A stretch of 64,000 bases of DNA, taken from Opitutaceae bacterium TAV5. GTDB lineage: Bacteria > Verrucomicrobiota > Verrucomicrobiia > Opitutales > Opitutaceae. Each line of letters opens with the position of its first letter. The first letter of the stretch is position 1. The DNA is taken from the NCBI GenBank assembly GCA_000242935.3, contig CP007053.1, forward strand, positions 5,813,001 to 5,877,000, written 5' to 3'. The notes beneath the pieces were generated by a model. That model was not told the DNA's origin. It was given only the letters and a program-made list of their open reading frames with translations, and searched no databases. Positions 42,243 to 54,212 of the stretch are shown one piece after another. The translations under genes were made by a program, and so were the position numbers.

Positions 42243-43791
42243 AGGTTTGACCCGAATGGCGCTAAGTTAAGGTCATTTTCCGATTATTTTTGTCGTCTGG
42301 ATATGGATACGCACATCTGATGTCTGGGACGGGTCATGAACTGGTAGCCTTTCGGGCGTCGTTTGAGGCATCGAGGTTCGGAGCGATCGGGGCGGAAGGG
42401 GAGCGGATCGGATGCCAGGGCGAGCAGGAGGTCCCCGAGGCGAGTGGAAGCCTGCGGGGAGCAGGCGGCGAAGAGAGGGGCGAAGGCGCGCAGGGTGCTG
42501 ACGGTGCCCTTGAACGAGATACGGGAGGGAGGCACATCGTGCTGGCGGGCTGCCTCGAGCATGAGCAGGCGGATCAGGTTGTAGACGATGGCCTGCATGA
42601 GGATCTCCTTTTCGATCATGGCCGGGGTCTGCGTGCGCAGCACATCCAGCCCCAGGGTGGTCTTGATGCTGCGGAAGTTCAGTTCGACCTGCCAGCGCAG
42701 GCGGAACAGGCCGGCGATGGCCGCATCCGGATACATCGCTTCATCAAGCAGCGTGGTGACCACGGCGATGTGGTCGGTGCGGAAGCCGGGTACCCGGACA
42801 CGGAAACGCACCACGCGCAGGGGCAGGCCGGCCGGCAGTTCTTTCCACAGGGATTTTTCCCATGGCCCCTGTCGTTGCGGTTTGGGCCAGCAGACCGGAC
42901 CGGTCCCGGTTTTGCGTCCCTGGTGCAGGCGCATGACCACATCGACACCCTTGCGCCGGAACAGGGCGATCAGCGCCCAGTTGCAAAATCCACGATCCGT
43001 CAGCAACACCTCGCCCGGATGAACCCAGCCGATCACCTGACGCGCCAGCGGCGCCTCGTGGGCCTTCCACGAGGAGACCACGAACCTGACCAGGTGCCCG
43101 GTGCACAGCGAGAACAGGCCCAGGAACTGGCCGGTGGGGAACCCGCAGCCCTTGCGCTGACACCCCGCATACGGGAAAACCTTCCGGTTGGCCGCGGTGT
43201 CGGGCATGGACAGGCCGCAGCCATCCAGCACCTTGACCGTCCGGCCCTGCCACCGGTCCGCCTGTCGCGCCCGTGTGTCGCCATGCCGCGCCAGCTGCCC
43301 GAAGGCCGCTCGCAGAACCTGGACAGGGAGCCGGCGGCGAGCCTGGCAATACCCTGCGCTCGAGTCGTCCACCCCTGCCGCGCCTCCCGCGGCCAGATAC
43401 CACGCCTGCACCCGCCGCACCGCATCCCGGCAACTGGCTCCCCGCTGCATCACCTGCCCCAGAAACGCGCAAAAGGTGACCCACGGCGTGAACACCCGTT
43501 CCCGTTCACCGGCCCCGTCAAACAGCTTCGCCGGCACGAACCGGCCCGCCACCGCCGCCAGCCCGTCCAGCTTCAGCGCCTTGCCCGACAGCCTTTCGGC
43601 CTGCCTGCCCAACCGCCCACCGCACAAACGATGCGAAAACCCGGGAAGATATAACGTGTTGATCCTCATCAAGTTGATGATTATCAGACGATTTTAGCAT
43701 ATCAATCTAATAATCAAGTGATTATAAAACTAATACTGCCCTTCCCCCGCTCTTTGCCTTGCCCTAACTTAGCGCCATTCAGGTTTGACCC
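42243..43791. mobile_element. IS4-family insertion sequence with 11-bp target duplication
   Basis: The element runs 42254-43780 (1527 bp). The left end GAATGGCGCTAAGTTAAGG (42254-42272) and the right end (43762-43780, reverse complement GAATGGCGCTAAGTTAGGG) are 19-bp inverted repeats with one mismatch. Both ends are flanked by AGGTTTGACCC (42243-42253 and 43781-43791), an 11-bp target duplication. The size, ends and duplication length fit the IS4/IS231-like group. The intact duplication implies a fairly recent insertion. Confidence 0.92.
42284..43669 (-). CDS. IS4-family transposase
   Basis: A 461-residue DDE transposase. The first Asp is in VKVLDGCGLSMPD, the second in VLLTDRGF, and the Glu in RWQVELNFRSIKTTLG, the IS4-type C1 region. 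It fills nearly all of the element and appears intact. The start is the ATG at 43669; the codon before it is a TTG. A GC-rich gene inside an AT-rich neighbourhood (43680-44800), consistent with its arrival by transposition. Confidence 0.92.
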   Translation of the reverse strand: MRINTLYLPGFSHRLCGGRLGRQAERLSGKALKLDGLAAVAGRFVPAKLFDGAGERERVFTPWVTFCAFLGQVMQRGASCRDAVRRVQAWYLAAGGAAGVDDSSAGYCQARRRLPVQVLRAAFGQLARHGDTRARQADRWQGRTVKVLDGCGLSMPDTAANRKVFPYAGCQRKGCGFPTGQFLGLFSLCTGHLVRFVVSSWKAHEAPLARQVIGWVHPGEVLLTDRGFCNWALIALFRRKGVDVVMRLHQGRKTGTGPVCWPKPQRQGPWEKSLWKELPAGLPLRVVRFRVRVPGFRTDHIAVVTTLLDEAMYPDAAIAGLFRLRWQVELNFRSIKTTLGLDVLRTQTPAMIEKEILMQAIVYNLIRLLMLEAARQHDVPPSRISFKGTVSTLRAFAPLFAACSPQASTRLGDLLLALASDPLPFRPDRSEPRCLKRRPKGYQFMTRPRHQMCVSISRRQK

Positions 43792-44170
43792 TGTCGGATG
43801 GGCCTTCCGCTTGGTCCTCAAAGACATCAAGCAAGCCCCCTTCTCGGGTTTGCCTCATGATCTCAAGAGACTTCTGTGCGCCCTCTTGCAAACCTGTCCG
43901 CCAAGCATCTACTTCGGTTTTAGAATAGTTCTCTGGACTGATAATCAATGCACCTATTGCATCTGGTCCCAGTTCAAGCCCATATCTATAACCCGTGTAA
44001 TAAGCATTGTTTTCTTCATGGTTATTATAGTGAACTGGACCTAATGCCGCCATTAATTTCTCTATCTGTTCTTCGGTTATTCCTTGGGTCTTAGGTGAAT
44101 ACTCCATATAGGCGTCATGTTTGCACCCGGCGGCTAAAAAAGAAAGTGCGATGAATAGTATGTTTTTCAT
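43769..44170 (-). CDS. Small lipoprotein, candidate RHS-linked immunity protein
   Basis: A 133-residue protein with a lipoprotein signal (MKNILFIALSFLAAGCKH; lipobox LAAGC). The mature part is soluble and acidic (ITEEQIEKLMAALG, YYTGYRYGLELGPDAIGAL). No family is recognised. It starts 4 bp after the stop of the RHS gene, has the same low GC, and so probably belongs to it. In polymorphic toxin loci the gene directly after the toxin usually encodes immunity. The last three residues (EWR) and stop come from the inserted IS4 element. Without the insertion the TAA would follow the Pro directly, so the protein is extended, not broken. Confidence 0.6.
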   Translation of the reverse strand: MKNILFIALSFLAAGCKHDAYMEYSPKTQGITEEQIEKLMAALGPVHYNNHEENNAYYTGYRYGLELGPDAIGALIISPENYSKTEVDAWRTGLQEGAQKSLEIMRQTREGGLLDVFEDQAEGPSDRVKPEWR

Positions 44171-44174
44171 TATT

Positions 44175-47100
44175 TTAATCAATCCATACAACTGGAATTA
44201 GATCTCCACTTATATCCTGTATGTTATCAATACCAACCATCCTTAGTTCACCATTGAAGTTACCGGTGATGATATTTTCTTGGCCGATCTTTGCCTGTAC
44301 CTGCACTGCAATTTCCTTGTAATGCATGATCATACGATCGCCACGTTCCATTGATTTTCTAAACTTTTGCTCCCAGTCTTTTTGGCAGGCATCTCCGATA
44401 CCTATCCCTTTCATCTTATTATATTCTTTTTCAACCAATCCATACATCCCTTTGTAAAAATGTGTCCAAACCTTGATTCTTTTATCTTCGTGAGCCAAGA
44501 TGGCAGATCGGCCACCAGCACTTACCTTGTGCCCTCCGACAATTACCCCGCGCTTTGCGCGGTAACTTGAGATTTCGAAGATAAAATTCAATTTGTTTCG
44601 ATCTCCACATTCACATTTCTTGTCATCATTATAAAAGTCGATTTTGTGGTGTGTCTTGTCAAGTGGAACTTCTGTCCATCCATAGGTTCTACCTCGTCCA
44701 GCAGGCCCGCCTAACCTTAGGTCATTTCCGTCTACGTCTATCTTCTTAATCGTTATTCTAACCGAACCGTGCGGATCGATGGTGTTCACAGGATCGGGAA
44801 AACCATATAAATTGATGCCGCCGTCTTCTTCTATAATATCTCGATTTATCCATCGTCCGAAATTCGGACTATAGTATCGGTATCCATAGTAAAGAAGAGC
44901 GGTTTCGGTATCGTGATATTTGGTGGAGAAGCCAAATGGTAACTCACCATTGGTACCGGTGGCCACCATGCGTGAGCCAAAAGCGCAATATTCATATTGA
45001 CCCGCGGGGGAGCCGCTTGCGACATCAATCCATATGACGATATTTCCGTTGGCATCATATCCAGGGGCGTATGTATCTGGTATGGCAGTAGTCCAGAGTA
45101 GGCCTCCTACACCTCCGGCTTCCTGAATGGTTTCACTCAAGTCCAAGCCCCATGTGTATGAGCGGGTAACGCTTCCGCCATTCAGAGCGTCGTATTCGGC
45201 AAGCAGATTCCAACCATCGTAGAGGAAACGAATATCGGAGGCCGGAGACCAGAGGCCGGAAGCCTGATTCCAAGTTTGGGCTACCTTACGGATGCGTCGG
45301 GCTTGGTCGTCGTAAGCAAATTCCAGTCGTTGTTTCAGATTCGGATAAAGGCTGGCGATTGCCAAGCGGGTTTCCATCGCCACAAGACGGTTTTCGGCAT
45401 CCCATGTATAATCCCAGAGTCCGTCTTCGGTCAGATTGCCGTCAGCGTCATAGGTGAGTGCTTCCGGATCCTTGGCCAGAAAGGCATCGCGCAGTTCGGT
45501 GGCAACCTGTTCGGGGGATTTTTTTACGGCCTGCACTTTGAGCGAAACTTGTGCGGCATTGGTCATATTATCCACTGCCAGCGCGTGAAAGAAATCAGCC
45601 TCGGTGCGCGTGGTCAGGTGGTCATTCGCCAGCACGGTGGTGTCGACATTGGCGGAGCCACGAACATCTATGAAGGCAGGCACGTCTCGCTGTTCGTACT
45701 GGTTGAGGGTATTACTCGTGTAGCTAGCGACGCGTCCGTTGGTCACGGTCTGCGTGCGGTTGCCAATGACATCGAAGGTGTAACCGAAGGCATAGCCGGG
45801 GAGCGAGGATGCGTCGGCGAGGCGTTTTTCGGCGGAAGTTAGCTGTCCGAGCGCATCGTATCCGTAATTCCAAGAGCGGCTATCTTCATGCGTAACCTGC
45901 GTGCGCTGGTTGGCAGCGTTATACGTGTAATCACGGCGGGCGTGGAGGATGGAGCCGTTGCCGAGCGTGTCCACGCGGGTGATGCGCCCGAGCGCGTCGA
46001 ACGTGCGCTCTTGCCGGACGCGTTCGGTGCCGTTGTTGCGGATTGTCGTGGTGGTGACTGCCCCAAGGTGGGGATGATACGTATAGGTGGCGGAATGAGT
46101 CCCCTGCGCGAGGGTGGCGAGGTGTGAGCCGGCGTCGTAAGTATAAATTACAGCCGGAATATCCGTTGCGGTGTAGCCGGACGGGCGTTGCAGGGCGTCC
46201 CAAGTGCGCGTAAGCGATTTACCCGAGAGCAGGCCGGTTCCCGAGTATGTTTCGGAGGTGAGCCGCCGGTTGTCGTCGTACGTGCGGGTGAGCAGGCCTG
46301 CCGCGTCGCTCGTGGTGAGGATCTGTCCGGAACGGGTGTATGTGTAAGTGACGGTCGGTGTGCTGTCGCTGTAGGTCACGGAAGCCAGGCCACCGGCATC
46401 GGTGTAGCCGTAAGTGGTGACGACGCCGCGTGCCCAAGCACGCGTGGCGAGCCGTCCGGCTGGCGTGTATGTATAGGTCGGTCCTTGGTTGTCGGCATAA
46501 CGCTTGTTGAGCAGCCAGCCGCGTTGCGGGTCGTAATTCCAGGTCGTGACGGCCTCGCCGGCAGTGCCGGCAAAGTCCTTCCAGGTGGTCAGCGTACGGA
46601 GCCGGCCCTGCGCGTCGTACGTGTATTCGGACGGATACGTGCGTGCGCCCCAGGTACGCTTTACCTGCCCGGTCGGGTAGTACGTCGTCTCGGTTTCGGT
46701 TCCGTCGGGATACGTGACCTTCGACTGCCAGCCGCGATTGTTGTAGGTGTAGCGGGTAGTCTGCGCGCCGTCGCCGGGATCGGGTGCAGTCACACTGGCC
46801 ACCTGATCGTCGTCAGAATACGAATACGTAGTCGTTCCAACTCCGGTCATAGTCTGCGAGGAAAGCCGGCCGTGCGGGTCGTACGCATACGTGACTTCCG
46901 AGAGAATGTCGCCATTGGCATCCTTGCGGGTTTCTCCGGCAAGGCGGCCTTGGGAATACATGCGGATTGTTTGTGTGCCGTCGGGAGCGGTGACGGTTTC
47001 GGTGCGGTTGCCCGCTCCGTCCTGCGTGAGGGTGGTGTGGGTGGTGAGTCCGTTGGTCGTCGTCCACGTTTGCTGGCCGTCGAGCGTGGTATCGACAGTC

Positions 47101-50100
47101 GTGATCACGGTCGGAGTATCGGTCTCTGTCATCCAGGATTCCGATACAGTCCTGCGGACGGGGGTTGTTGACGCCGGCGCTTCACCCCGGGTCGCTATTT
47201 CCGTCACCGTCCGCTGGATACGGTCTGGTCCAGTATAATCAATCGAGCCGTTCCGGTTGATGTCGAGTGCGGTGACGGTTTGTTCCCCCTTGTCGTTCCA
47301 AGCAAACAGCGTCTGCACGCCGTCGGCATCGGTCTGCCGGACGAGTTGGCCTTTCGCATTGTAGCCAAACGTTTCGGCGGCGCCGTCGGGATATTCGCGG
47401 CGGACGGTCTGGCCGAGCGGATTGGTCAAGGTTCTGGTCCATTCGGTTTCCTCGCCTTCGGAGCCTGTGGCGATTTCCTGCGTCCAGCGCAGGCCGGCGG
47501 AAGTAACGCCGTACAGCATCTTTTCCGGGCGCGCGGTGGTGCCGGTAACGGAAAGCGTCCGGCCATCGCGATGGCTGGTCGTGGTGGTGGGGGCTCCGTC
47601 CGGTGTGGTGATGATGCTGATTTCACCGCCGGCAGGCGTCTTGTCATAGGTATACGTGGTTCGGTTGCCGAGCGCGTCTTCGGTCCAGATCGTGCGGCCG
47701 GCAAGATCGTAGGCGGTCATCGACTGGACAATCGAACTGCCGTCGGTGCCGATGCGAGTGGTTTTCACGGCCCGGCCGGCGGCGTCGAGGGTTGTCTGCA
47801 TCTGAATCCCGTTGCGCATTTCATTCACGAGCCGGCCAAGCGAATCGTAAGTATAGAGGGTTTCGATGCCGTCGCGATCCTTGTAGCGCAGCAGTTGCCC
47901 GCAGCAGGCGTATTCAAGTTCTTCGGTGGTTCCGTCGAGATGGGTGTAGGCAACGGGACGACCGCGTTGGGCGTCGTCGTTTTCATAGGCGCTGGCCTTG
48001 CGCAGGGAAATGATTTCGCGGCTCTTGATGTCGCGGACTTCTTCACGAATGACGAGTCCGCGTCCGTTGGTCTCGGTGTAGATAATCGTGCCATCGGCCA
48101 CGCCCCAGCCGGTGTCGTCCACGGTGCCGGTCTGCGTAATGGCGAGGTAGCCACCGGCGACGGAGGGTTGTTCCGTTTCGAGTGTGACAATCCCGTCAGG
48201 GCGAAGGGTGCGCCAGCGTTTGTTGTTGGTCAGATCATAGTCGATTTTTGTCACGAGATTGCCGGGAGCATCCCACGCCGCGCCGGGCGTGGCGGCGTCC
48301 ACTTCCCATACCTGTTTGACTGTGCGGGTGGTGGCGGTATCGCCGAGCGCGACAGGTACAGGCTCCAGCCACGTGAGTGCGTAGCGGCGGCCCACTTCCT
48401 GACCGGCGATCCGCTCCGTGCGGGTAACGAGTTTTACAGGTTGCCCGTTGACTGTGATCTGTTCGCGGGTGGTTTCAAAATAATGGTGACTGGACAGGTC
48501 GGCATCCGTTCGCAGGGAATCCAGCCAGGGCATGATTTCCTGATGATACTCACCTTCCGGGGTGTAGGTGTAGCGCTCCCAACGTCCGTCAGGATACTCG
48601 ACGTAGTCGAGCCGGTCGGTGCCGGGAAAATAATGCCAGCGGGTGGTCTGCGCGTCGGTGGCACTGTCGGGGTTGAGCACCGACTCGATTTTGCGCTGGA
48701 AACCGTTGGGGCCGGTTTCATAGGTGGTCTTTTCCCTGGAAACGACGGTGCCGTTGATCTCCTTGAGCGTGCGGATTTCTACGGGAAGGCCGTTCTCTGT
48801 CGTTTTCTCCAGAGTCTCCGTAGCCAGTCCGTCGCGGTTGAGCGACCAGACTCCGTTGTTTTCTCCAAACGTGTAGACCTGGTTGCCACCACCGGCCATG
48901 CGCCTGATCTGCATCTGCAAAAAATCGCCGGCCGTGGCCGGCACAAAATGCCAGGAAGAGGTGAGGGTGGCGAAGTCTGAACCGGGGGCATAAAACCGGA
49001 TGGCGAAACCGCCACCGGCCAAGTCCTCGATCAGGATGTCCGCGTCGGGGGCATGTACCTGGCGGACCACGTCTTCATCGTCCCTGACGAGTTTCACCGA
49101 ACCGTCGCTGCCGAGCAGCTGGTAGATGAGAGAGCCGGGAGAAAACGCCGCTTCATTCATTTGTTCGGCAAGGAGCTTGATATAGCCGGCATTGGCACCG
49201 TCCCAGGTCGCTCCAAGAGAGAGCTCCATGTGCATGCTGCCGGTTTTCGGTGTCCCGCAGGCGGCTTCGCCGGCAACTCCCGGCTCCGGAATGTGCTCGA
49301 AGACGATGCCTTTCGGTCCGGGGCGGTATTCCATGCAGGGCTGCAGCGGCAGGTTGAAATCCGCCCATACCCCGGATTCACAGTTACCCTCCGTAAGCTC
49401 TATTTCTGTGGTCAACTCGGTCGGCTCGCTCCACGGACGCCCGTTTTGTTCTTCTTCCGGTGTCAGGGGTTTTCTGGAGCGCGACACCACTGACATGATT
49501 GCCTTGTACTTGCCCGGACAGCTCTTCAGCAGGGCACGGATGTTACACACCTGACCTCCTTCATCGATGCAGGGGTCCCCCGGTTCCGGCGGACAACCCA
49601 GCCACCAGTGCGCATCACCCAGATTTTCGAGTTCCACCCAAGGGTATTCCTCGTCCGGCACTCGCGCCAATGCGTCCTCCCATGTGTCGGGTTGGGACAG
49701 GCGGGTGATCTCGATTTGTGCTCCCTCACATTCCCACGTAACATTGGCATTCGGACTATAAGAAGGATCGTTGTTTTTGTCATAGGAAAGTCTGATCATC
49801 TTTTGAGTAGCAAAAACATCTTGATATTCGATTGTATATCCCTGCAGGGGGAAAAAATCTGATGAGTTTTCAAAAAAATCATATTCATCTTCCTCGTCTG
49901 GATAATAATCTGGATCATTGAATGCAACTCCGACTATCAGGTGCGACTTGGTTTCACCATTACGTCGTCTATACCACCCATAATGGTAATACTTATGGGC
50001 GGACTGCTCGCTCAATGCCCAGTAAACACCATCGACAAACCCTTCCTCCTCTGACACACATTCGATTAGGTTTTCTTGATTAAACATGCAGGATTCCGAG

Positions 50101-50414
50101 TGCGATCGTGATGAGGAATTATTGACGTCCTCTCTATACCCTGGGTACTCTGGATTGGAATAAACATAAATAAAGTCATTATAGTAATTCAGGATGTAGT
50201 CTTTTTTTCGATAAAAAAGACCGTCCAATGGAAGACCAAGTTCACTTGTGGTGAAACCTGCCATACAAGCTGCCTCGCCTACAGCCTTTACCTTTATTTT
50301 AATCTCGCTTGGCTCGATTTGTTCGAGTTTACACTCTGCAATCGATGGAGAAACAGAAAACAAGAAATTTACTACAAAAAGGACTGCCAAAATAGTTTTG
50401 AGGAGAGAATTCAT
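44175..50414 (-). CDS. Giant RHS/YD-repeat protein with unique C-terminal tail
   Basis: A 2079-residue exported protein with an N-terminal signal peptide (LLKTILAVLFVVNFLFSVSPS). A unique Asp/Tyr/Ser-rich N-terminal region follows (about 30-230, AT-rich). Then come a long RHS/YD-repeat body (TYTYDSLGRLVNEMRNG, YDADGNLTEDGLWDYTW, YDANGNIVIW) and the RHS core (ALLYYGYRYYSPNFGRWINR, then EEDGGINLYGF, ending IDPHG near residue 1883). After the core the last 196 residues are unrelated, Lys-rich and AT-rich. This is the position of variable toxin domains in RHS proteins. The tail has AHEDK near residue 1975, recalling but not matching an HExxH zinc site (the second His is Arg). Toxin activity is not shown by sequence. 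Confidence 0.85.
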   Translation of the reverse strand: MNSLLKTILAVLFVVNFLFSVSPSIAECKLEQIEPSEIKIKVKAVGEAACMAGFTTSELGLPLDGLFYRKKDYILNYYNDFIYVYSNPEYPGYREDVNNSSSRSHSESCMFNQENLIECVSEEEGFVDGVYWALSEQSAHKYYHYGWYRRRNGETKSHLIVGVAFNDPDYYPDEEDEYDFFENSSDFFPLQGYTIEYQDVFATQKMIRLSYDKNNDPSYSPNANVTWECEGAQIEITRLSQPDTWEDALARVPDEEYPWVELENLGDAHWWLGCPPEPGDPCIDEGGQVCNIRALLKSCPGKYKAIMSVVSRSRKPLTPEEEQNGRPWSEPTELTTEIELTEGNCESGVWADFNLPLQPCMEYRPGPKGIVFEHIPEPGVAGEAACGTPKTGSMHMELSLGATWDGANAGYIKLLAEQMNEAAFSPGSLIYQLLGSDGSVKLVRDDEDVVRQVHAPDADILIEDLAGGGFAIRFYAPGSDFATLTSSWHFVPATAGDFLQMQIRRMAGGGNQVYTFGENNGVWSLNRDGLATETLEKTTENGLPVEIRTLKEINGTVVSREKTTYETGPNGFQRKIESVLNPDSATDAQTTRWHYFPGTDRLDYVEYPDGRWERYTYTPEGEYHQEIMPWLDSLRTDADLSSHHYFETTREQITVNGQPVKLVTRTERIAGQEVGRRYALTWLEPVPVALGDTATTRTVKQVWEVDAATPGAAWDAPGNLVTKIDYDLTNNKRWRTLRPDGIVTLETEQPSVAGGYLAITQTGTVDDTGWGVADGTIIYTETNGRGLVIREEVRDIKSREIISLRKASAYENDDAQRGRPVAYTHLDGTTEELEYACCGQLLRYKDRDGIETLYTYDSLGRLVNEMRNGIQMQTTLDAAGRAVKTTRIGTDGSSIVQSMTAYDLAGRTIWTEDALGNRTTYTYDKTPAGGEISIITTPDGAPTTTTSHRDGRTLSVTGTTARPEKMLYGVTSAGLRWTQEIATGSEGEETEWTRTLTNPLGQTVRREYPDGAAETFGYNAKGQLVRQTDADGVQTLFAWNDKGEQTVTALDINRNGSIDYTGPDRIQRTVTEIATRGEAPASTTPVRRTVSESWMTETDTPTVITTVDTTLDGQQTWTTTNGLTTHTTLTQDGAGNRTETVTAPDGTQTIRMYSQGRLAGETRKDANGDILSEVTYAYDPHGRLSSQTMTGVGTTTYSYSDDDQVASVTAPDPGDGAQTTRYTYNNRGWQSKVTYPDGTETETTYYPTGQVKRTWGARTYPSEYTYDAQGRLRTLTTWKDFAGTAGEAVTTWNYDPQRGWLLNKRYADNQGPTYTYTPAGRLATRAWARGVVTTYGYTDAGGLASVTYSDSTPTVTYTYTRSGQILTTSDAAGLLTRTYDDNRRLTSETYSGTGLLSGKSLTRTWDALQRPSGYTATDIPAVIYTYDAGSHLATLAQGTHSATYTYHPHLGAVTTTTIRNNGTERVRQERTFDALGRITRVDTLGNGSILHARRDYTYNAANQRTQVTHEDSRSWNYGYDALGQLTSAEKRLADASSLPGYAFGYTFDVIGNRTQTVTNGRVASYTSNTLNQYEQRDVPAFIDVRGSANVDTTVLANDHLTTRTEADFFHALAVDNMTNAAQVSLKVQAVKKSPEQVATELRDAFLAKDPEALTYDADGNLTEDGLWDYTWDAENRLVAMETRLAIASLYPNLKQRLEFAYDDQARRIRKVAQTWNQASGLWSPASDIRFLYDGWNLLAEYDALNGGSVTRSYTWGLDLSETIQEAGGVGGLLWTTAIPDTYAPGYDANGNIVIWIDVASGSPAGQYEYCAFGSRMVATGTNGELPFGFSTKYHDTETALLYYGYRYYSPNFGRWINRDIIEEDGGINLYGFPDPVNTIDPHGSVRITIKKIDVDGNDLRLGGPAGRGRTYGWTEVPLDKTHHKIDFYNDDKKCECGDRNKLNFIFEISSYRAKRGVIVGGHKVSAGGRSAILAHEDKRIKVWTHFYKGMYGLVEKEYNKMKGIGIGDACQKDWEQKFRKSMERGDRMIMHYKEIAVQVQAKIGQENIITGNFNGELRMVGIDNIQDISGDLIPVVWID

Positions 50415-50473
50415 TGTTCGTTAAGTAACCGGATCGGTGAAAAGAGCGGGACGCAGGGGATCACTCCGCTACA

Positions 50474-51193
50474 TCAGGGTGAATAGACGGTGAGGGCCAG
50501 CGCGGCAGGAGGTACTGTCTGGGCGGCGAGAGTCGGATCGGTGTCGGCGAGATATTCGGCGAGGTTGGACAGGCCGTCGCCGTCGGGGTCGGCAGTCGGA
50601 TCGATGCCGATCTGCCCGAAGTGGGCCAGTTCCCAGTTGTCATCGATGCCGTTGCCGTCGGTGTCGACAAAACCGGGTGGCCCCGATGGCACGGTGAAGC
50701 TGAAGACGTGCTTGAGTTGACCAACGTTGACGAGTGCGTAGTTGTCCGCTCCTGACTGGTCGGTGGGCCAAGGATAGGAACTGCCTTCGACGACAGGACC
50801 GACGACGATTCCGGCTGTGGCGAGCCGGTTATAAAACAACTGGGCAACAGCTTTCAGTTGGCCGAGATTGACGGCGGCATAGTCATCGCGGGTAACTCCT
50901 GTGGCTGGTGGCTGTTGCCATGAGGTCACAAGAGCGTTGATTGCCGGACCTGCGCCACCCGGAAGGTGGGCGTTCATTTCCGCCGCCGCTTGCGTGGTAA
51001 TGTGTTTGAGTTGGCCGATGTTTGCCGCCGCATAGTCGTCCGGCGCGGCTGCCGGATCAAGCACCCCCTGCTGCATCCACCATGCAGGCTGCGCCTTCAA
51101 AAGATTCAATGCCTGAAAACCGAGGACTGATATCAATCCGACAAGGAGCAGGGTTAATACCAGACAGCAGCGCCTGCGGGATGGTGAGGTCAT
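50474..51193 (-). CDS. GQLK-repeat protein with TSP3-type calcium motifs
   Basis: A 239-residue protein with an N-terminal membrane anchor or signal (CLVLTLLLVGLISVLGF). It has three copies of a roughly 50-residue unit with the core DDYAAANIGQLKH (residues 52-64), DDYAAVNLGQLKA (103-115) and DNYALVNVGQLKH (150-162). Two thrombospondin-type-3-like acidic loops follow: DTDGNGIDDNWE (177-188) and DPDGDGLSNLAEYLADTDPT (202-221). TSP3 loops bind calcium. It lies between the RHS gene and the head-repeat gene, same strand, 59-60 bp from each. Presumably exported; function unknown. Confidence 0.75.
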   Translation of the reverse strand: MTSPSRRRCCLVLTLLLVGLISVLGFQALNLLKAQPAWWMQQGVLDPAAAPDDYAAANIGQLKHITTQAAAEMNAHLPGGAGPAINALVTSWQQPPATGVTRDDYAAVNLGQLKAVAQLFYNRLATAGIVVGPVVEGSSYPWPTDQSGADNYALVNVGQLKHVFSFTVPSGPPGFVDTDGNGIDDNWELAHFGQIGIDPTADPDGDGLSNLAEYLADTDPTLAAQTVPPAALALTVYSP

Positions 51194-51251
51194 GGCGAAA
51201 ATGGGATATTAGGAGTGCATGGACAGTCAGAAGATAATTGATGATAAAGAG

Positions 51252-54212
51252 TTATTCACCCTGATAACGGAGTCCGGCATTGAGAGTGCTCGGGTCGTTG
51301 CCCTGCGTGAATGTTCCCATCGAGACATCCCCGCCCGGAGGAATGCGGATGCCGCCTTTGGCTTCAAAGGGACCTGCCGAACGGGTTGTACCATTCTTGT
51401 GAACCGCAAAGGCATTGCTGTAGGTCCATTCGTCCCAATCACCGTTGCCGATGACAAAGAGATCGTCGCTTGGCACCCATGCAGTCCTGGAGCCCTGGGC
51501 AACGTTAAGCCGTCCGATGGCAAACAGGTTGATGGCCTGCGCCTGGTTGTAGTAGCCAAACGCAGCTGTGTAGTCTCCGCTGGCAGAATTTCCGCTGCCA
51601 ATAGCTGTGGAAGCGGAACCGGATGCACTGCCGGATTCACCCAGTGCGACAGATACCGGACCGGATGCCGAACTCCATAAGCCGCCCGCGAGCGAATAAT
51701 CGCCGTTGGCAGAATTGCCTTCACCTCCCAGGATTACTGATCCGTAGCCGGATGCCGTGTTCCCCCAGCCACCGCCAATAAAAGAGCTACTTCCAGATGC
51801 CGTATTATACGCTCCTCCTACTGCTGTGGCATTATAGTTTGTTGTTCTGTTATATTCCCCGATGGCAATGCTGGATGAACCTGTGGCCGTGCTATTATAA
51901 CCCAAACTGATGGTGTTTGGGCCGATGGCAAAAGCATTGTCACCCATTGCAATGGCGTTTGAGCCGGGTGCCATTGCATTGCCCCATGCAATACTTGCTG
52001 CGGCAGGCTGAAACACATCGATAATCGGCTCACTTATTGGTAACGTGACGAAAAAAGGCATCCAGTTACCCAAGATGAGTGTATCGCCCAATGTGAAATT
52101 TTCCTCAGTGGAATACCCGCTGAGAACAATTTCCTCGTTTGAGGGTGATAACGTGATCCTATTGATTTCCGCCGGTATCAATTTCGTCCATAGTGATGCT
52201 CCGGCGTTGTCGAGTTTCAGGATATAACCATTGGCATAACTGATGGCATTGACATTAACCCCGGCCATATCCAGCGGTGTCCCCTCACTGGCGGAGATAT
52301 AACCGAAAATATAAATATTGTTAGCGGCATCCAATGCCAAACCGTTGGTATAGTCTGAATCGGTATGGCCAATTATCCGTGCCCATTGTCCGGCCCCGGC
52401 TGTATTCAATTTGAGAACATAGCCATCTTGATTGCCTTTTGCGGTGACAGTGATTCCGGCGAGATTCACCGTCTGGCCTGCGGTACGACTAAAATTTCCG
52501 ACCACATAAACATTGCCGGAGCCATCGACGGCCAAGCCTTTGAGGTAATCAGAACTGCTGTGGCCGAGAATTTTTGCCCATTGCCCAGCTCCGGCACTGT
52601 TCAGTTTAAGGACATAGCCGTCCAGATTGCCCTGCGCGGTGACAGTGATCCCGGCGAGGTTCACGGTCTGGTTCGCAGTACGATTAAGTTCTCCGGCCAC
52701 ATAAACATTGCCAGAGCCATCGACGGCCAAGCCTCTGACATAATCGGAATTGCTGTGGCCGAGGATTTTTGCCCATTGCCCGGCTCCGGCACTGTTCAGT
52801 TTAAGGACATAGCCATCGTTACCGCCCTGAGCGGTAACGCTGATTCCGGCAAGGTTCACTGTCTGGTTTGCTGTCTGGTTGACATAGCCGGAAACGTACA
52901 CGTTGCCACTGCTGTCCAAAACCACTTTTTCGGCATAATCGGAGTTGGTAGAACCCATCACTTTTGCCCATTGGCCGACTCCGGCACTGTTCAGTTTGAG
53001 CACAAAGCCATCGTTGCTCCCCTGCGCGGTGACAGAAACTCCGGCAAGACCGATCGCCTGTCCCGCCGTGCCGTTAAGAGATCCGATAACAAATACATTG
53101 CCGGAGGCATCTACCGTCACACTTTTGGCAGACTCGGAGCCGGTGCCGCCGATTACCTTCACCCACTGGGCGGCTCCGGCATTGTTGAGTTTCAGAACAT
53201 AGCCATCGTTGCCGCCCTGCGCAGTGACGGAAACCCCGGCAAGGCTGATGCTTTTGCCTGCCGTCGAGGACAAATACCCGACCACGTAAATATTGCCGGA
53301 AGCATCTGTCACAATGCCTTGCGGGGCTCCGGAGACATACCAGACCTTATTCCATGAAACCGTTCCTGCCGGAGTGCGTTTGAGAACAAATTGGTTCGTA
53401 GTCGTGGAACTGCCGTAAATCGTGGAATTGCCGATTTTGACCGAGGAACCGGAAAATGTTCCCGCTAGGTATTGGTTTCCTGCCGTATCATAAACAATCG
53501 AAATGCTCCCTGAATTTTGTGATCCGGTAATTATTCCATCGACGTGTGTGGGTTCGACAGGGTTTTCCTGAAAACCGAGGTTTTGCAGGACGGTATTCAG
53601 GTAAGCGGTACTGTTTGCGGTGAGCGCGGCGTCCGGGTTGGACCCAACGATGAGGCCGTTGGCGAAGGTGACGCGTCCATCCTCGCCAACCTGCGCCACG
53701 ATCTGATCGGAGGCGTTATAGAGCGCGGTGCTGCGCAGAGAGGACTGGTTGGCAATCAGGGTGCCATCGGACAAACGGAATCCTCCCGGTGCGCTGATTT
53801 CGCCCGTTGCGGGGGTCAGCGTGATCGTGGACGCGCCCGTGGTATCGTGGAGGGTCAGCGTGTTGTCCGCTCCGAGGGTCATCTTCGGCGTGGCAGTGCT
53901 CGCATCGGTAGAACCTTCTTTCCAGAGGTATTCGACCGCAGACCGGGCAGCGTAAACAACCACCTGCCGGGTTGCGCCGTTTTCCTGATAGGTGAGCAAC
54001 AGGGCTATCTGGCCATCTCCGGTTGTACCGAGGTCGGCGTGGTTGCTTTCGACGTGGAGTTGTCCCGAGACGGTGAGCGAACCGGTGTCATCCGGGCCGG
54101 GGTTGATAACATGATCACCGGTGAGCGTAACGGGATCGGCACGGGTGACGGTTACAGACGCAGTCGCGAGAAGCGCCAGCGCGGCGCACAGGCAGGGCAG
54201 AGGAGTTTTCAT
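51252..54212 (-). CDS. Surface protein: 65-residue propeller repeats plus YadA-like head
   Basis: A 986-residue protein with a signal peptide (ALALLATASVTVTRA). An N-terminal region (about 30-220, including TTGASTITLTPATGEI) resembles phage-tail or trimeric adhesin collars. Residues about 240-670 are about seven tandem 65-residue SBBP-type beta-propeller units (GYVLKLNSAGAGQWAKILG, VDGSGNVYVAGELN). Residues about 715-890 hold YadA/hemagglutinin head repeats (NTASGYGSVILGGEGNSANG, SGSASTAIGSGNSASGDYT). A short C-terminal domain (NAFAVHKNGTTRSAGPFEAKG, LNAGLRYQGE) recalls tail-fibre ends. No membrane-anchor barrel is present. It probably forms an extracellular adhesin or receptor part. Confidence 0.8.
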   Translation of the reverse strand: MKTPLPCLCAALALLATASVTVTRADPVTLTGDHVINPGPDDTGSLTVSGQLHVESNHADLGTTGDGQIALLLTYQENGATRQVVVYAARSAVEYLWKEGSTDASTATPKMTLGADNTLTLHDTTGASTITLTPATGEISAPGGFRLSDGTLIANQSSLRSTALYNASDQIVAQVGEDGRVTFANGLIVGSNPDAALTANSTAYLNTVLQNLGFQENPVEPTHVDGIITGSQNSGSISIVYDTAGNQYLAGTFSGSSVKIGNSTIYGSSTTTNQFVLKRTPAGTVSWNKVWYVSGAPQGIVTDASGNIYVVGYLSSTAGKSISLAGVSVTAQGGNDGYVLKLNNAGAAQWVKVIGGTGSESAKSVTVDASGNVFVIGSLNGTAGQAIGLAGVSVTAQGSNDGFVLKLNSAGVGQWAKVMGSTNSDYAEKVVLDSSGNVYVSGYVNQTANQTVNLAGISVTAQGGNDGYVLKLNSAGAGQWAKILGHSNSDYVRGLAVDGSGNVYVAGELNRTANQTVNLAGITVTAQGNLDGYVLKLNSAGAGQWAKILGHSSSDYLKGLAVDGSGNVYVVGNFSRTAGQTVNLAGITVTAKGNQDGYVLKLNTAGAGQWARIIGHTDSDYTNGLALDAANNIYIFGYISASEGTPLDMAGVNVNAISYANGYILKLDNAGASLWTKLIPAEINRITLSPSNEEIVLSGYSTEENFTLGDTLILGNWMPFFVTLPISEPIIDVFQPAAASIAWGNAMAPGSNAIAMGDNAFAIGPNTISLGYNSTATGSSSIAIGEYNRTTNYNATAVGGAYNTASGSSSFIGGGWGNTASGYGSVILGGEGNSANGDYSLAGGLWSSASGPVSVALGESGSASGSASTAIGSGNSASGDYTAAFGYYNQAQAINLFAIGRLNVAQGSRTAWVPSDDLFVIGNGDWDEWTYSNAFAVHKNGTTRSAGPFEAKGGIRIPPGGDVSMGTFTQGNDPSTLNAGLRYQGE
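52186..53356 (-). repeat. Tandem 195-bp repeats in the surface protein gene
   Basis: Units of exactly 195 bp (65 codons), with corresponding landmarks at 52186, 52381, 52576, 52771, 52966 and 53161. Units at 52381, 52576, 52771 and 52966 are the most alike: the segment beginning GCCCATTG and the ACTGTTCAGTTTAAGGACAT stretch recur with only a few changes. Confidence 0.8.

Follow-up and report, generated by a model that had tools for sequence, protein, structure and literature searches.

Organization of the locus

The window analyzed here is a 64,000-nucleotide stretch (positions 5,813,001 to 5,877,000 of contig CP007053.1, assembly GCA_000242935.3) of the 7.4-Mb genome of Opitutaceae bacterium TAV5. 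Three consecutive genes on its minus strand, A, B, and C, encode a fiber-like protein, a small protein with three units marked by the motif GQLK, and an RHS protein. In the open reading frame (ORF) list they are separated by gaps of 58 nt (A–B) and 59 nt (B–C). An initial annotation, drawn from the sequence alone, had described this trio with its spacing of ∼60 bp, and its coordinates and features proved right. It did not include a fourth, small gene, D, which directly follows C on the minus strand. We consider it reasonably probable that A–D form a Sec-exported polymorphic-toxin locus with a dedicated fiber partner, a reading that draws on gene order, the co-occurrence of a tail of A with the GQLK domain of B, gene fusions, cargo variation, and the polymorphism of the C tail and D. 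The features of the locus, in window positions, are the following.

51252–54212, minus strand: gene A, exported fiber-like protein of 986 aa with SBBP propeller and YadA-type head repeats and a conserved C-terminal tail
51306–51347, minus strand: tail motif of A, RIPPGGDVSMGTFT, common to genes upstream of GQLK genes
50474–51193, minus strand: gene B, putative adaptor of 239 aa
50684–51091, minus strand: GQLK domain of B, three GQLK units, residues 35–170, predicted SLH-like fold
50474–50683, minus strand: C-terminal part of B, TSP3-like calcium-loop region and an end that also occurs in B proteins at three further loci of this genome
44175–50414, minus strand: gene C, RHS/YD-repeat protein of 2079 aa
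44766–44990, minus strand: Rhs_assc_core of C, residues 1809–1883
44178–44795, minus strand: variable C-terminal tail of gene C, starting near residue 1874 and possibly a toxin
43769–44191, minus strand: gene D, small protein whose start resembles a lipobox (by eye) and which may confer immunity; probable ATG at 44170

In Pfam, A matches SBBP β-propeller repeats (E 2.7e-31, six stretches) and YadA_head (PF05658, E 1.6e-9), and it contains a 195-bp (65-aa) tandem repeat at 52380–53034; no C-terminal YadA membrane-anchor family was found at E ≤ 0.1. C matches RHS_repeat (E 7.2e-23) and Rhs_assc_core (E 1.8e-18), followed by a tail of ∼196 aa. These profile matches, together with the three GQLK units of B, bear out the domain content first assigned to the trio, except that the calcium loops of B match TSP3_bac only below the Pfam cut-off (E 0.0056). 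N-terminal hydrophobic segments in A, B, and C were recognized by eye. The D protein has 133–140 aa, depending on the start: the likely ATG lies 4 nt beyond C, and the first TTG would instead give a 17-nt overlap with C. A promoter and terminator scan returned 6 and 7 sites, no more than expected from shuffled sequence, and is uninformative on separate promoters.

Co-occurrence of the A tail and the GQLK domain

The N-terminal domain of B measures ∼137 aa and consists of three GQLK units, each preceded by a tryptophan. A profile built from eight such domains matches 12 of 150 genomes of the family (8 with E < 1e-20, holding ten domains) and, in two overlapping samples, 51 of 384 genomes of the class and 40 of 387 genomes of the phylum. 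A scan of 84,980 species genomes, seeded with two peptides from this family and thus liable to miss more distant relatives, gave 72 GQLK loci. Their labels are Verrucomicrobia or sub-groups, Opitutaceae, Puniceicoccales, Akkermansia, Prosthecobacter, Chthoniobacteraceae, Methylacidiphilales, Kiritimatiellae, Lentisphaerae, and, for two records, “uncultured bacterium.” Adding the window and nine loci from this genome and its family and removing six duplicates left 76 non-redundant loci. Exactly three GQxK units are present in 64 of 73 domains. At L087/L117 and L089/L170, a foreign block (PA14-type-like by eye) lies before or between the units, which are kept.

An origin of B from mobile elements was considered and rejected: by tblastn, neither 50,697 phage records nor 72,556 plasmids contained a relative, and none of 34 pattern matches among IMG/VR contigs was confirmed. 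In PHROGs, B and D had no match, and A (two) and C (one) matched families of unknown function.

The GQLK loci had been collected without reference to A. Two of the 76 lie at contig ends and one contains masked bases, which left 73 for a census of the A tail, whose canonical motif is G[DGN][ILVM]xM near the gene end. This motif occurs in the directly upstream, same-strand gene at 62 of these loci, and a variant (TDIPMF) at 2. At L173, from a Lentisphaerae metagenome-assembled genome, the tail precedes the GQLK domain within a single ORF, which brings the loci with a tail of any kind (canonical, variant, or in the same protein) to 65 of 73. Within the last 45 residues, the motif is found in 57 of 69 upstream neighbors versus 2 of 622 other ORFs, one of which is itself an A-like gene. 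The bodies of A in front of this tail differ between loci; by regular expressions they comprise YadA heads, propellers, VGIGT-type fiber repeats, and collagen-like stretches. Several of these body types are trimeric folds elsewhere.

A profile of the tail was built from tails adjoining GQLK genes and therefore tests for occurrence elsewhere rather than representing a blind choice. In this genome it gave two strong matches, both at GQLK loci, the next having an E of 0.2. Among the 150 family genomes there were 20 matches with E ≤ 0.05. All ten with E < 1e-5 lie at ten GQLK loci, such that the ten strong tails and the ten strong GQLK domains mark the same loci. One match outside GQLK loci (G036, E 7.5e-5) appears, on inspection, to be a chance ORF; the other nine are weak (E 0.0076–0.048).

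Elsewhere in this genome, L026 repeats the order A–B–C–D, with a B protein 74% identical to that of the window and overlaps of 4 nt each between B and C and between C and D. The order A–B(GQLK)–RHS is also found in other genera (L082, L083, L086, L121, and others). The culturable Chthoniobacter flavus Ellin428 carries an A–B pair at L119. B and C are fused into one ORF at five loci, A and B at L173. At two further RHS loci of this genome (L027 and L028), B shares only its last 68 residues with that of the window (68–69% identity) and lacks the GQLK domain, and A is missing upstream as well; other RHS genes (L076–L078) stand without A and GQLK. RHS genes are therefore not tied to A, but the GQLK domain is.

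That tail and GQLK domain pair so strictly, and that A and B also occur as a fusion, indicates that A and the GQLK domain act together. Judged by co-occurrence, what strictly belongs together is A and the GQLK domain and not the A–B–C triplet, because RHS genes also occur without both. The initial annotation had placed A, B, and C in one assembly and had named independent occurrence of the genes as an argument against it. The triplet does recur, and its order and fusions speak for a joint assembly; RHS is only one of several cargoes, and independent occurrence holds for the RHS gene but not for A and B.

The variable end of C, gene D, and other cargo

When identities are computed per 100 columns, the four C paralogs of this genome are 44–99% identical over about their last 900 residues up to the end of the Rhs core. 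Past the core, identity falls to 9–41% over short alignable stretches, and the ends are unrelated. A small gene lies directly downstream of each variant, and the four D genes are mutually unrelated. Over its first ∼500 residues, the window C also differs strongly from the other three (12–28%). The constant body and variable tip of C match the pattern of polymorphic toxins, which makes the tail a candidate toxin. No toxin identity could be assigned to it, DUF4056 being matched below the cut-off and in L028 only.

Cargo was classified with an RHS profile made from these loci, counting genes within 4 kb as downstream. RHS accompanies GQLK at 24 of the 73 loci (19 downstream and 5 fused to the GQLK protein). 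A Pfam scan of 16 GQLK proteins without RHS by this profile found PT-HINT (L132), a DUF900 hydrolase (L149), RCC1 (L128), a sub-threshold Amidase_2 (L148), and Ig-like and TSP3 domains; 5 of the 16 had no Pfam match. Grouped by their last 350 residues, 61 GQLK proteins yield a large group of 26, mostly short B proteins held together by the GQLK domain itself, as well as a class with 9 members, three pairs, and 20 singletons. Of the 57 next genes, 17 form an RHS group and 7 a group matching the class of 9; the rest are two pairs and 29 singletons. The preceding gene is overlapped by 4 nt in 14 of the 57. On a GQLK tree with 55 tips, approximate cargo labels (RHS or other) change at least 14 times, compared with a mean of 18.5 for shuffled labels, and 61 of 2000 shuffles are as low; cargo thus appears to be exchanged often but non-randomly.

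In principle, A, B, and C could instead be a surface adhesin, as part of an adhesion or biofilm-matrix module in which the variable RHS ends bind and D is a lipoprotein anchor. Such a module would suit the adhesin-like repeats that make up A, the Ig-like, RCC1, or TSP3 domains of several GQLK proteins, and tails and D proteins lacking a toxin or immunity family match. However, the abrupt loss of similarity past the Rhs core with a matched change of D is the polymorphic-toxin pattern, and sister proteins end in HINT, a DUF900 hydrolase, or a weak Amidase_2. We regard this explanation as improbable. The suggestion of delivery or adhesion made for the trio at the outset had missed the polymorphic-toxin character given by the variable C tail and D; pure adhesion is the less likely of the two.

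A second cargo class with related C termini is formed by L128, L144, L149, L151, L155, L163, L169, L175, and L177; it includes the DUF900 hydrolase match of L149. A common family of ∼320–400-aa proteins is encoded downstream in 7 of the 9, which looks like an effector–immunity pair. At L084, the GQLK gene is followed by three similar tandem lipoprotein-like genes (228–231 aa) and a 997-aa gene, with no RHS.

Predicted fold of the GQLK domain

Residues 25–239 of B were modeled with AlphaFold2 using 57 relatives (pLDDT 86, pTM 0.71). In the model, each GQLK unit forms a short bridge followed by a helix. The top eight Foldseek matches are triple S-layer homology (SLH) domains (E 0.2–0.9). Of the 14 entries listed by VIA-align, 13 are triple SLH domains with Z 6.1–7.4, and the remaining one has a Z of 2.2; among the SLH entries, 3pyw aligns over 117 residues at 4.5 Å. 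A second model, of the Lentisphaerae homolog L173 with its own alignment, again places 13 SLH entries on top (Z 5.5–7.0, next 3.2). Because Z scores below 8 may reflect a common arrangement, we treat the resemblance of the GQLK domain to the pseudo-threefold triple SLH domains as a lead.

According to the available sections of PMC6081394, SLH domains consist of three repeats in approximate threefold symmetry, and the motif TRAE marks where the core helices begin, beside three grooves. By secondary structure, GQLK lies at the equivalent place. The two domains thus share three repeats per chain, a similar predicted fold, and a conserved four-residue motif at the core-helix starts; they differ in that B has GQLK for TRAE, shorter units, no PF00395 match, and apparently a protein tail as partner. 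The GQLK unit is also similar to DAVNxxQL, the neck consensus of trimeric autotransporter adhesins (as given in the accessible part of PMC7247746), and PF05662 matches 6 of 58 GQLK proteins (best E 2.3e-9). YadA-type heads in A are a further likeness to the adhesins described there, whereas A has no match to a YadA anchor and the neck-like motif occurs threefold in a separate protein. Both comparisons point to three-foldness within one chain. A search of the PDB with the GQLK profile gave a best E of 0.47 (2yo0, a GCN4 fusion of an adhesin stalk), followed by 0.99.

The SLH likeness could also mean that the GQLK domain is a distant SLH-type anchor that attaches B and its cargo to a cell-wall or envelope polymer, A being a separate adhesin that is merely co-transcribed. 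Both GQLK models best match triple SLH domains, GQLK takes the N-terminal position on the core helices that TRAE has in SLH (PMC6081394, available sections), and a tryptophan precedes every unit. Yet PF00395 (SLH) is matched at E ≤ 0.01 by none of 58 GQLK proteins and by no protein of this genome, where CsaB was found only far below the cut-off, and an anchor leaves the strict co-occurrence of A tail and GQLK and the L173 fusion unexplained. We therefore think an anchor of this kind unlikely, though less so than an adhesion module.

Relation to known systems

Tc (ABC) toxins have an RHS shell with a variable toxin end, and C would resemble them in this. Unlike in these toxins, A, B, and C contain no TcA, SpvB, or TcdB domain in Pfam, and PAAR and VgrG domains were likewise not found there. 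The locus shares with the Rhs/WapA-type polymorphic toxins, as portrayed in the available sections of Zhang et al. 2012 (PMC3482391), a large exported protein with RHS repeats, Rhs core, and variable tail, followed by an unrelated small downstream gene. It differs from them in the GQLK-TSP3 adaptor and fiber genes that precede the RHS gene and in a tail without an assigned family.

The nearest precedent is MafA–MafB of Neisseria, in which, according to the accessible parts of PMC7738311 and PMC3482391, a polymorphic toxin whose N-terminal domain is lineage-specific depends for its secretion on an outer-membrane partner encoded upstream. The two systems share a constant N-terminal domain past the signal peptide, a polymorphic C terminus, and an upstream gene for a dedicated surface partner. 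In Neisseria this partner, MafA, is an outer-membrane protein required for MafB secretion (PMC7738311, same parts), whereas A is a repeat-rich fiber, and B has no match to DUF1020 (MafB-N) in Pfam.

Proposed mechanism

In the polymorphic-toxin reading, C would be an RHS shell that encloses the variable, toxin-like C-terminal tail, and D would protect the producer cell. B would act as an adaptor, pairing with C through its TSP3-like C-terminal half and with A through its N-terminal GQLK triplet. A would be the fiber, its repeat body differing by species and its C-terminal tail constant. We propose that A trimerizes and that its three identical tails seat in three sockets of a GQLK domain with putative pseudo-threefold symmetry, which would couple a trimeric adhesive fiber to a single toxin-carrying chain. 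Given that the GQLK model resembles the pseudo-threefold triple SLH domains, a trimeric fiber on a three-socket adaptor would be the simplest geometry. A would extend the reach of the assembly and bind the target, where the RHS tail would be released. Export across both membranes, trimerization, docking, toxicity, immunity, and the target are what we infer here.

Several observations weigh against this proposal. The A tail is missing at 8 of the 73 evaluable loci. The similarity to SLH is weak (Z < 8, Foldseek E 0.2 or worse), and the sockets could bind glycan, as SLH does, instead of A. In a model of the natural A–B fusion (L173), whose alignment covered the GQLK half only, the A part is disordered (pLDDT about 40–46) and unpacked from the GQLK domain. 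An outer-membrane exporter was not identified. Neither the C tail nor D matches a toxin or immunity family in Pfam or NCBIfam, and toxicity and immunity are for this reason argued from position and variability.

More tentatively, and with less confidence than for the locus itself, the A tail and GQLK domain might together form a previously undescribed two-component system for surface display (perhaps for secretion) that extends across the phylum Verrucomicrobiota and allied PVC bacteria. The GQLK domain would then be a single-chain pseudo-trimer and serve as a symmetry adaptor, joining a homotrimeric fiber to a single chain whose cargo is interchangeable (RHS toxins, hydrolases, and HINT proteins, among others). 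In the literature on Verrucomicrobiota, subscription papers lying mostly outside the search, no such delivery module was found, and among the matches listed on Rhs and polymorphic toxins, Opitutaceae, and surface display, no title or abstract beginning describes an A-tail/GQLK pair; the string GQLK does not occur in the available text of PMC3482391. If the system exists, fiber and cargo could be swapped independently via one standard connector. The conserved tail–socket pair would provide a partner gene for many orphan surface proteins, allow cargo to be predicted from the adjacent gene, and offer a natural trimer-to-monomer connector. It would also bear on polymorphic toxins, which are classed by trafficking route.

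Neighboring and related genes

Two large TSP3-rich proteins without GQLK (1826 and 1938 aa) are encoded elsewhere in this genome (L080, 5135–10615; L081, 1680–7496). Their endings are alike and also resemble that of the L076 protein, and they are possible further adaptor or cargo genes. Directly after D, the window contains an IS4-family transposase gene (42284–43672; NF033592, E 1.2e-56) that could move or truncate the locus.
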